From contig CAKKQL010000188.1 in the NCBI GenBank assembly GCA_919902095.1, positions 1-11,124 of the forward strand: a stretch of 11,124 nucleotides of DNA, in the 5' to 3' direction. The translations under genes and the position numbers were made by a program. Under the pieces are notes generated by a model, which did no database searches, was not told where the DNA came from, and saw only the letters and a program-made list of their open reading frames with translations. Source of the DNA: Acidiferrobacterales bacterium (GTDB taxonomy: Bacteria > Pseudomonadota > Gammaproteobacteria > Acidiferrobacterales > Sulfurifustaceae). Positions 4,250 to 7,653 of this stretch are shown piece by piece (position 1 is the first letter of the stretch; every line of letters starts with the position of its first letter).

Positions 4250-4483
4250 CTAGCCAGATCCGGCCGCCCGGCGGTGTTCCTCGCTGCAGTAGGTTTTGCC
4301 GGCCGCATGTACGGCCTCGGATTCAGGAACATGGGTGCCGCAGACGGAGCAGGTCAGCATGGGCGCCGGACGGTCCGGCCTCGGCTCGGCGGAGCTACGG
4401 CGCCGGGCGAGGGCGCGGCGGATGTAATGCACCACCAGCCATAAGCCGAGCAGAATGATAATGATGCGGATCAGCTGTCCCAT
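4250..4483 (-). CDS. PP0621-family small membrane protein with zinc-ribbon-like motif
   Basis: A 77-residue protein with one N-terminal membrane helix (about residues 5-19, almost all Ile/Leu/Val), a basic Arg-rich cytoplasmic stretch, and a C-terminal CxxC...C-x3-H motif (Cys45, Cys48, Cys66, His70: CSVCG and YCSEEH) that could bind one zinc. The layout matches the uncharacterised PP0621 family of Proteobacteria, and I know of no established function. It precedes pilS in the same direction, but a hairpin cluster lies between them. There is no Shine-Dalgarno before the ATG. The bases directly upstream are pyrimidine-rich because they belong to the heptad inverted repeat at 4488-4592. Confidence 0.8.
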   Translation of the reverse strand: MGQLIRIIIILLGLWLVVHYIRRALARRRSSAEPRPDRPAPMLTCSVCGTHVPESEAVHAAGKTYCSEEHRRAAGSG

Positions 4484-4487
4484 GAAG

Positions 4488-4592
4488 AAGGTACGAGATA
4501 CGAGGGGCGAGATGCGAGGCAGTAAGACGTGGATGACGGGAGCATGAGGATGAGATTTTTCCTCGTACCTTGTATCTCGCGCCTCGTCCCTT
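4488..4592. repeat. Heptad inverted repeat, element 1
   Basis: Two 32-base arms, 4488-4519 and 4561-4592, are inverted copies matching at 22 of 32 positions when the second is reverse-complemented. Each arm is AAGG followed by four 7-base units of the form NNCGAGR, with one unit per arm diverging. Examples are TACGAGG and TGCGAGG in the left arm and GACGAGG and CGCGAGA in the right arm read in reverse complement. The 41-base spacer (4520-4560) shows no clear heptads. On the minus strand the pyrimidine-rich arm ends 4 nt before the ATG of the 4483 gene, and the other arm starts 5 nt after the end of tRNA-Pro. No gene is visible in this interval. Confidence 0.75.
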
Positions 4593-4597
4593 AAATT

Positions 4598-4674
4598 TGG
4601 TCGGGGTGAGAGGATTCGAACCTCCGGCCCCTTGCTCCCGAAGCAAGTGCTCTACCAGGCTGAGCTACACCCCG
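4598..4674 (-). tRNA. tRNA-Pro (anticodon CGG)
   Basis: The minus strand folds as a complete 77-nt cloverleaf. The acceptor CGGGGTG pairs with CACCCCG, followed by discriminator A and an encoded CCA. The D arm has GCTC/GAGC, the anticodon stem CTTGC/GCAAG encloses the loop TTCGGGA, and the T arm is GGAGG-TTCGAAT-CCTCT with a G-T pair. The anticodon CGG reads CCG. The overall sequence closely resembles E. coli tRNA-Pro. It starts 15 nt after the ispB stop, so it may be co-transcribed with ispB. No T-run terminator follows it directly. Confidence 0.97.
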
Positions 4675-6512: not shown

Positions 6513-6597
6513 AGAGAAAAGATGCAAGAGAAAAGAGAAAAGGAGGACAGTGCTGTACCAGGTTCTTCGCCGCTCTTTTCTCTTTACTCTTTTCTCT
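6513..6597. repeat. Heptad inverted repeat, element 2
   Basis: Left arm 6513-6540 consists of four 7-base units, AGAGAAA three times and AGATGCA once. Right arm 6570-6597, read in reverse complement, has AGAGAAA twice plus AGAGTAA and AGAGCGG. The arms match at 22 of 28 positions, including uninterrupted 10-bp and 12-bp pairings. The spacer 6541-6569 begins with AGGAGGA. The pyrimidine-rich right arm ends 6 nt before the obgE ATG at 6604 and occupies the place of its ribosome binding site. The layout is the same as at 4488-4592, with unrelated bases. Confidence 0.8.
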
Positions 6598-6603
6598 GAT
6601 GCC

Positions 6604-7653
6604 ATGAAATTCGTTGACGAAGTCACGATTCGCGTGCAGGCCGGTAGCGGCGGCAACGGCACGCTGTCGTTCCGGCGCGAGAAATTCGTTCCGCTCGGCG
6701 GGCCGGATGGCGGCGACGGCGGCGACGGCGGCAGCGTCTATCTCGTCGGGCGCGAGGGACTGAACACGCTCGCCGACTACCGGCACACGCGCCGGTTCCA
6801 GGCGCAGAATGGCGCAAAGGGCGGCGGCGCCGACCGCAGCGGCAAGCAGGGCGCGGATCTGTTCCTGCCGGTTCCGGTAGGCACGAAGGTCACGGAAGCC
6901 GATACCTCCGAGGTCATTGGCGAAATCACGCGCGAGGGCGAGCAGTTGCTGGTGGCGCGCGGCGGCCGGCACGGGCTGGGCAATACGCGCTTCAAGTCGA
7001 GCGTCAACCGCGCGCCGCGCAAGACCACGCCCGGGCAGCCCGGCGAAGTGCGCGAACTCGCGCTTGAGCTGCAGGTGCTGGCCGACGTGGGTCTGCTCGG
7101 GCTGCCGAATGCCGGCAAGTCGACGTTGCTGCGCGCGGTGTCGCAGGCGCGGCCCAAGGTGGCGGACTATCCGTTCACCACGCTGCATCCGCATCTCGGG
7201 GTCGTGCGCGTCGGCGAGCATCGCAGCTTCGTCGCCGCCGACATCCCCGGGTTGATCGAGGGCGCGGCCGAGGGCGCCGGCCTCGGCATCCAGTTCCTGC
7301 GCCATCTGGCGCGCACGCGCATCCTGCTGCACCTGGTGGACATGAGCGCGGCGGAATCGGGCAAGGAGCTGGCGCTGGCCGTGCGCGCCATCGAGGGCGA
7401 GCTCAAGAAGTTCAGCAAGGAGCTGGCGGCGCGCGAGCGCTGGCTGGTATTGAATAAAATGGACTTGGTGCCGGCGACGGAGCGCGAGGCGCGCGCCCGG
7501 GAACTGGTCAAGGCGCTGCGCTGGAAACGGCCGGTGTACCGCATCAGCGCCATCGCGGGTGAGGGTTGCCGCGAGCTGACGTATGATTTGATGCAACGCC
7601 TGGATGAACTGAACAAGAAAGCCGAGAGCCATGTCACCGAACAAAACATCTGA
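6604..7653 (+). CDS. obgE: ObgE/CgtA GTPase, ribosome-assembly factor
   Basis: Essential Obg-family GTPase that binds the 50S subunit and links ribosome maturation to growth and stress; 349 residues. The glycine-rich Obg domain occupies about residues 1-159. The G domain shows G1 GLPNAGKST (166-174), the G2 Thr pair (TT at 192-193), G3 DIPG (213-216), G4 NKMD (284-287) and G5 SAI (315-317). The tail is short. MKFVDEV is the typical Obg start, which supports the ATG at 6604, but there is no Shine-Dalgarno in front of it. The frame is open upstream, and a GTG at 6550, preceded by AGGAGG, would add 18 unrelated residues. The 3' end overlaps proB by 23 nt. Confidence 0.95.

Follow-up and report, generated by a model that had tools for sequence, protein, structure and literature searches.

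Two heptad-armed inverted repeats in the window

The window, i.e., the whole stretch of 11,124 nt that was analysed, contains two intergenic inverted repeats, E1 and E2, each lying a few nucleotides from the start codon of a gene. The features concerned are the following.

4250..4483, minus strand: PP0621-family gene (NF041023, 73.4 bits, cut-off 45), start codon 4 nt from E1
4488..4592: E1, heptad-armed inverted repeat of C-type (NAGNNNC units), between tRNA-Pro(CGG) and the PP0621-family gene
4488..4519, plus strand: E1 arm read first on this strand, A-AG-GTACG-AG-ATACG-AG-GGGCG-AG-ATGCG-AG-G
4520..4560: E1 loop, 41 nt, geneless
4561..4592, minus strand: E1 arm read first on this strand, A-AG-GGACG-AG-GCGCG-AG-ATACA-AG-GTACG-AG-G, 4 heptads, 5 AG
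4598..4674, minus strand: tRNA-Pro(CGG), 3' end 5 nt from E1
6513..6597: E2, heptad-armed inverted repeat of A-type (AGAGAAA-like units), between the rpmA terminator and obgE
about 6513..6542, plus strand: E2 first arm, AGAGAAA-AGATGCA-AGAGAAA-AGAGAAA-AG, 4 heptads, 5 AG
about 6573..6597, minus strand: E2 second arm, the plus strand showing four CT at a spacing of 7
6604..7653, plus strand: obgE, start codon 6 nt from E2

On either strand the E1 arms read A-AG-N5-AG-N5-AG-N5-AG-N5-AG-G, and the loop of E2 is about 30 nt long. The window derives from a Muproteobacteria-like gammaproteobacterium: its IspB protein is 75% identical to that of one Candidatus Muproteobacteria genome, and its ObgE is 80% identical to that of the relative G058. 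Elsewhere in the window, positions 1-71 and 588-658 are 96% identical start regions of two adjacent minus-strand genes, named by eye as pilin-like.

The initial annotation described both features as inverted repeats with arms of degenerate heptads, and named a comparison of the 7-nt periodicity with shuffled sequence as a check. The two repeats, with arms of about four heptads, are real by this measure. Their lag-7 identity is 0.46 (E1) and 0.51 (E2), compared with 0.25 (standard deviation 0.04-0.05) in shuffles, and none of 2000 mononucleotide shuffles reached the value of whole E1 or of whole E2. Parts taken alone are weaker, the left part of E1 with the loop being reached by 25 and the right part by 3 of 2000 shuffles, and the left and right parts of E2 by 58 and 1. 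These single-part values and the purine richness of the arms are what speaks for chance low-complexity purine tracts; however, the behaviour of the whole elements, the 123 regions of period 7 compared with 12 of period 8 in 0.87 Mb of the related genome G056 (some of the 123 being runs of N), and the pool comparison in the next section refute that explanation, to which we give virtually no credence. Relative to dinucleotide shuffles, the RNA folds have z = -3.3 and -4.5 on the two strands of E1 and z = -3.8 and -3.9 on those of E2. The tRNA-Pro was the sole match to Rfam 15 at gathering score, with none for E1 or E2. Both elements have a tandem period of 7, as heptameric simple sequence repeats do; however, the C-type units differ at three of seven positions, and thus lack the near-identical units of simple repeats.

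Related elements in other genomes

We surveyed 57 genomes from the order of the relative G001. Matches to GAG(N4)x4 occur in 22 of them, with 244 in G056 alone. The 1.46 Mb covered by 100 contig stretches of G056 yielded 296 inverted repeats, a density of 203 per Mb, compared with 53 or 39 per Mb in a pool of 79 ispB-centred loci from other proteobacteria (1.36 Mb). Arms of period 7, 8, 9 and 10 are carried by 39, 20, 61 and 30 of the inverted repeats in G056, respectively, and by 0, 2, 1 and 0 of those in the pool. The scan of related genomes that had been proposed as a check therefore does yield further elements, and the 39 period-7-armed repeats of G056 vs none in the pool uphold the proposal of a family with a common period whose arms agree in length and orientation. 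Within the first 60 contigs of G056, all 17 GAG array pairs are GAG-first and none is CTC-first; 61 further arrays in these contigs, counted under the same permissive rule, are unpaired, some of them evident chance matches within genes. The period and layout that E1 and E2 have in common are found with many more unit sequences than these two: the period-7 arms comprise many unit types, those of E1 and E2 included.

The arms of E2 recur in G055, G056, G057 and G061, and its rare second unit (GATACAA-like) recurs in G056. Loops of same-type copies are mostly near the shuffled level, a few recent duplicates excepted, and transposition of whole elements with a conserved loop was rejected because most loops are unrelated. 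G056 also contains compound arrays in which successive heptad unit types keep a period of 7 throughout (L155:4021-4171, L196:4510-4705), and a heptad-free palindrome family built on GTGGGTGGCTGACCCACGGCAGG (L149, L160, L185, L272, L297).

Short intergenic palindromes in many copies could also be of REP/BIME type and owe their movement to a Y1 (RAYT) transposase, and G056 does have three Y1_Tnp matches. However, the Y1_Tnp counts (3 in G056, 2 in G061, 1 in G068, 0 in G052 and 16 in G025) do not follow the copy number of the elements, and G025, with its 16, has no GAG-heptad match and one period-10 match; we rejected this link and consider it very improbable.

S23 genes lie between heptad arms

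In the 57 genomes, 16 loci of PF05635 (23S_rRNA_IVP, S23, 'four helix bundle protein') were found in 11 genomes, and at 13 of the 16 the gene is flanked left and right by inverted heptad arms (11 detected by script, two by eye). The three others are L369, with heptads in direct orientation on both sides, L378, a broken gene with heptads on one side, and L377, with none. Each of the four PF05635 genes of G056 is enclosed by heptad arms, and the arm type differs from gene to gene. One of them (G056:C21), which adjoins tRNA-Gln, has C-type arms, one of which is identical to an E1 arm at 26 of 32 positions. At L379 (in G046), heptad arms enclose only part of an S23 gene, which may be an intermediate on the way to the gene-less state. 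Among 371 G056 genes of 240-560 nt taken as a control, periodic inverted arms enclose 6, namely, three S23 genes, one GxxExxY gene and two others.

The association extends to a class-level sample, for which the S23 and heptad tallies, agreeing in size, centre and the 66 genomes listed, were taken as one draw of 229 genomes. GAG(N4)x5 matches are present in 36 of these, PF05635 above the cut-off in 41, and both in 21, i.e., S23 occurs in 21 of the 36 genomes with GAG heptads vs 20 of the 193 without (Fisher p = 1.2e-9, in which the relatedness of the genomes overstates independence). Within the order, PF05635 was found in 5 of the 9 genomes with at least three GAG-heptad matches vs 6 of the 48 others (Fisher p = 0.009, kinship ignored). 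The S23 gene is 36-48 nt from the heptad repeat in G209, G150 and G157. The overlap is incomplete in both directions: 15 of the 36 heptad-positive class genomes, many of them drafts, have no S23 gene above the cut-off, 20 have S23 without heptads of the GAG type, which alone was counted, and G057, G061 and G068 have arm matches but no PF05635 match, many such genomes again being drafts.

On plasmids, S23 genes were found in 29 records, 23 of them cyanobacterial, and 25 of the 29 were covered (three Riemerella and one Trichormus were omitted). In 20 of these 25 loci the best tandem period is 7 in the left and the right flank alike, although one flank of L400 and of L417 shows it weakly, and in 18 of the 20 the script found the flanks to be inverted. 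Heptads flanking plasmid S23 genes include AGGGAAC in Nostoc, AGGGTGT in Calothrix and AGGTGAC in Anabaena. Two more are truncated genes with period 7 on one side, and three have period 8 (Gemmatirosa, Leptolyngbya and Picosynechococcus). Hence, the period-7 rule at S23 loci is strong but not absolute. Three cyanobacterial plasmid S23 genes separate cas6 from cas4 (L398), the beta from the alpha gene of ribonucleotide reductase (L399), and cas10 from cmr3 (L423); they part seemingly natural neighbours, as expected of insertions.

An AG core shared by the arms

The strand bias of the units, originally read as GAG-N4, does reflect a repeated core, but the core held in common with other arm types is AG-N5. 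Of 30 first arms from S23 loci, 27 keep AG at one phase, compared with a mean of 16.7 and a maximum of 24 in 2000 trials in which the seven columns were shuffled, and we accordingly dropped GAG as a universal core. The 30 arms, hand-copied and several of them trimmed by eye, were taken from 13 loci of the order and, on plasmids, from 17 of the 22 loci with period 7 (L401, L416, L422, L425 and L426 were omitted). Five AG are present in 6 of them, four in 14 and fewer in 10; in the window, five at a spacing of 7 are present in both E1 arms and the first arm of E2, and four in its second arm.

GxxExxY genes and arms of period 8 to 10

In the same order, all 19 loci of PF13366 (PDDEXK_3, GxxExxY) lie between inverted arms of period 8-10, and both PF13366 genes of G056 have arms of period 9. 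Five of the PF13366 and two of the PF05635 loci were judged by eye, and one arm of the GxxExxY locus L382 is a single unit. No crossover between family and period was seen among the 16 PF05635 and 19 PF13366 loci of the order. On plasmids, clear inverted periodic arms flank GxxExxY genes in 2 of 5 cases and none are clear in the other 3 (5 of 8 records covered). An amplification of the period-10 unit CGCAGATNAACGC, to between 16 and 212 matches, is seen in nine genomes of the order; elsewhere the unit has at most 4, and its reversed-pattern control gave at most 2. PF13366 is present in 7 of these nine genomes vs 6 of the 48 others (Fisher p = 1.9e-4, kinship ignored). The pattern suggests that, as a general design, small proteins and arm periods are matched to each other. 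In two contig ranges of G056 (L140-L199, L260-L299), we also observed a second and larger set of inverted repeats, whose arms have a period of 8, 9 or 10 (GACGCAAAG, ACACAGAGG, ACAGGATTA and CGCAGATGAA types).

Pairing and orientation of the arms

The purine-rich arm had been reported to come first relative to the downstream gene. However, this order holds automatically on both strands of any such inverted repeat, and is thus uninformative about that gene. The arms had also been thought to be kept complementary by copying. In strict register, the true partners of 15 C-type elements form 344 of 465 Watson-Crick pairs, compared with a mean of 358 when arms are randomly re-paired, i.e., re-paired arms fit equally well, at odds with this idea (15 of the 21 C-type pairs were used; four of G013, one of GTTTCGA type and one with a short arm were omitted). 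A shift-tolerant test gave 0.736 for the 21 true C-type pairs vs 0.696 (p = 0.029), and no excess matching for seven A-type pairs. The first unit of the C-type arms is distinct, its N4 being GTAC in 16 of 30 first units, compared with 5 of 30 second, 4 of 30 third and at most 2 of 30 fourth units. The arms follow a degenerate consensus and are not copies of each other.

These results bear on whether E1 and E2 are simple sequence repeats, in which polymerase slippage would grow the heptads, 7 nt being favoured, and template switching would make the arms complementary. Slippage has been proposed for the heptanucleotides over-represented in many bacteria (PMC4692102 and PMC4679880, citing Mrazek 2007), and agrees with the changing unit number (the first arm of E1 has four heptads in the window and seven in its G056 orthologue), with long perfect arrays in G056 and G213, and with the slight excess of C-type arm matching in one of the two tests. 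It does not predict S23 genes between the arms, nor does it sit well with C-type arms that mostly have four units, including a distinct first one, or with true partners no better than random in strict register. Since re-paired arms match as well in this register, slippage with arm-to-arm copying is not the main account, and we regard it as unlikely.

Orthologous sites and the position of the elements

The E1 site holds an orthologous element in G056, 88.7% identical over 106 bp. The E1 loop as a whole was matched only at this locus, with 36 of 41 aligned bases identical. In the same comparison, the PP0621 gene is 68% and the ispB-tRNA stretch 78% identical; the higher conservation of E1 may reflect either constraint or a recent transfer of the element. 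By eye, the E1 site of G068 has an element of similar type, that of G001 a degenerate one, and that of G060 a CGCCAAG remnant, and there is no heptad element at this site in G058, the closest relative. The obgE site was compared in 97 loci with placeable rpmA and obgE, identical spacers being counted once. Other inverted repeats of E2-like size are found there in G058 (ACAGAG-type), G056 (CGCAGAG), G001 (CGCAAAG) and G060 (CGCCAAG), and heptads in G046 (AAGTNNC) and G047 (CAAGATG); A-type-like heptads were found by script in L031 and by eye in L025, both of them more distant. In G063, G065 and G002 there is no element, and obgE starts about 20-50 nt past the terminator. Elements at orthologous sites thus differ or are absent, indicating that they turn over there. 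No target-site duplication was seen by eye, nor a clean empty site in a close enough genome. Downstream of tRNA-Pro in L230, L240, L247 and L252, we observed repeated copies of the tRNA-Pro 3' end (CTCTCACCCCGACC) in hairpin-rich spacers of about 90-120 nt, which look like short tRNA-targeting insertions.

The initial annotation had also linked the elements to nearby start codons that lack a Shine-Dalgarno sequence, and suggested a role as 5' leader structures. E1 and E2, which fold stably, do end 4-6 nt before an ATG. However, between same-direction genes in G056, for 13 of 15 period-7 elements the upstream stop is closer than the start (p = 0.007), the median distances being 3 nt to the stop and 22 nt to the start (genes were called by a simple script, so that starts are approximate), although E2 itself is nearer to the start. 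The upstream stop is also the nearer one for 59 of all 82 periodic elements and for 36 of 49 aperiodic inverted repeats; the bias is weak at period 8 (9 of 12) and absent at period 10 (11 of 20). As the aperiodic repeats show it too, it is partly a general feature of such spacers rather than element-specific, and no rule of position at start codons emerges. A Shine-Dalgarno-like motif precedes obgE at 0 of 9 occupied sites vs 19 of 82 others, the latter being all sites outside the nine listed occupied ones, a few of which may hold partial repeats. The remaining 63 of the 82 lack the motif as well, and several element-free relatives have PP0621 and obgE starts without Shine-Dalgarno, so that a link between SD-less starts and the elements is not supported. 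Conservation of E1 above its neighbours and the 0 of 9 occupied sites would fit cis-regulatory leader hairpins of obgE and the PP0621 gene, as would the TAACTGA heptamers of one marine Beggiatoaceae genome, most of which lie just upstream of starts (PMC4679880). Against this stand the upstream-stop bias, the 63 of 82 motif-less regions, the differently built inverted repeats of other species at the obgE site, and the missing elements of G058 at the E1 site and of G063, G065 and G002 at obgE. A leader role is therefore not supported, and we consider it distinctly unlikely.

Origin of E1 and E2

Taken together, we conclude that E1 and E2 are probably gene-less, non-autonomous, MITE-like relatives of small S23 insertion elements. 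A full element would consist of an arm of about four AG-N5 heptads, an S23/IVP gene of roughly 350 nt, and the inverted arm. E1 and E2 have the inverted AG-N5 heptad arms of this class, about 31 nt long, but no S23/IVP gene between them, nor is there an S23 gene within the window; since loops of 41 and about 30 nt are too short for a gene, we call them gene-less relatives and not full members. They may have arisen by gene loss, or as short forms that spread separately. The S23 protein or a partner would recognise the arms, and copies might settle in short spacers by gene ends, where an insertion would be nearly harmless. Once transcribed, a copy would form a hairpin that might be cleaved by RNase III, as described for the S23-coding intervening sequence of 23S rRNA. 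Several observations speak against an S23-element origin: the window has no S23 gene, loops of same-type elements are mostly unrelated, unlike those of classic MITEs, no target-site duplication was recognised, S23 genes and heptads overlap incompletely among genomes, period 7 is not absolute at S23 loci, and the identity of E1 to its G056 counterpart (88%, vs 68% for PP0621) is higher than expected from neutral decay.

By sequence, the closest solved S23 structure is XCC0516 (2gsc). One S23 protein matches bAvd, a family of accessory proteins of diversity-generating retroelements, weakly (E = 1.6e-4, below the cut-off), which might leave room for an RNA route of element movement. The Xanthomonas S23 protein is a homopentamer of four-helix bundles, and S23/IVP proteins were described as solved in structure but of no known function (PMC4990558; the available text names the X. 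campestris protein and does not give the code 2gsc).

Comparison with known systems

MITEs are short, gene-less elements with terminal inverted arms that have gene-bearing relatives with similar ends. E1 and E2 share the terminal inverted repeats and the lack of a gene, and G056:C21 is such a gene-bearing relative with matching ends, albeit in the genome of a relative. They differ from MITEs in that their internal sequences are mostly unrelated between copies and there is no known transposase. No target-site duplication was seen by eye.

The closest described relative is the intervening sequence (IVS) in the 23S rRNA of Coxiella burnetii. This IVS of 428 nt carries the S23/IVP gene in a stem loop, is excised by RNase III and has been called selfish, and it has two or three tandem GACAGAT heptamers before the gene, their number depending on the strain (PMC4990558). 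Like the class of E1 and E2, it is small and has an S23 gene and AG-N5 heptamers (GACAGAT). However, it sits in 23S rRNA, whereas E1 and E2 are geneless and intergenic, between tRNA-Pro and PP0621 and between rpmA and obgE, respectively.

The GGGNATC repeats of Xanthomonas are degenerate intergenic heptads, mostly of four units, on average 28 nt from the upstream gene; they form 70 and 75 convergent pairs, i.e., inverted repeats, in two species, and mostly occupy the same gene pairs with differing sequence and length (PMC4692102). They resemble E1 and E2 in being degenerate, intergenic, mostly four units long and paired in inverted orientation, but their unit is G-rich and without AG, and the S23 gene goes unmentioned in the available text of PMC4692102. 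In Beggiatoaceae, the TAACTGA heptads form 169 sets, one of them indirect, mostly near start codons (PMC4679880). Like E1 and E2 they are intergenic, and their reverse complement contains AG; unlike them, they are direct repeats of a single unit close to starts.

Heptanucleotide repeats have also been described in Calothrix, and the cyanobacterial heptads appear as tandem repeats, with the S23 link absent, in the available text of PMC4692102. On the plasmids analysed here, heptads of filamentous cyanobacteria flank S23 genes like the arms of S23 elements. Heptanucleotide repeats in these cyanobacteria go by the name of STRR.

Heptameric repeats have been reported as over-represented in bacteria with neither their function nor their source settled, and in 2015 the authors of the closest study were aware of no detailed literature on them (PMC4692102). 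Among the matches listed for the repeat-unit strings in the open-licence literature, there is no bacterial-titled paper. Our broadest conjecture, which we hold to be doubtful, is that much of the unexplained bacterial heptad load (cyanobacteria, Xanthomonas GGGNATC, Beggiatoaceae TAACTGA, and E1 and E2) would be arms of one S23/IVP mobile class, with a sister class of period 8-10 based on the GxxExxY nuclease-like protein, and that the S23 ring would read AG at a spacing of 7, each subunit of the homopentamer taking one, in the manner of TRAP, a ring protein that reads GAG triplets at intervals. As most arms have three or four AG, they agree only loosely with one AG per subunit. If true, a ring reading spacing more than sequence would explain how the period stays fixed while the rest of the unit drifts. 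The S23-heptad link itself may explain the source of many puzzling seven-base repeats in bacteria, and raises the question of whether the S23 protein binds, moves or processes the arms. It also cautions against taking every short hairpin ahead of a gene such as obgE for a regulatory leader, since it can be the remnant of an insertion.
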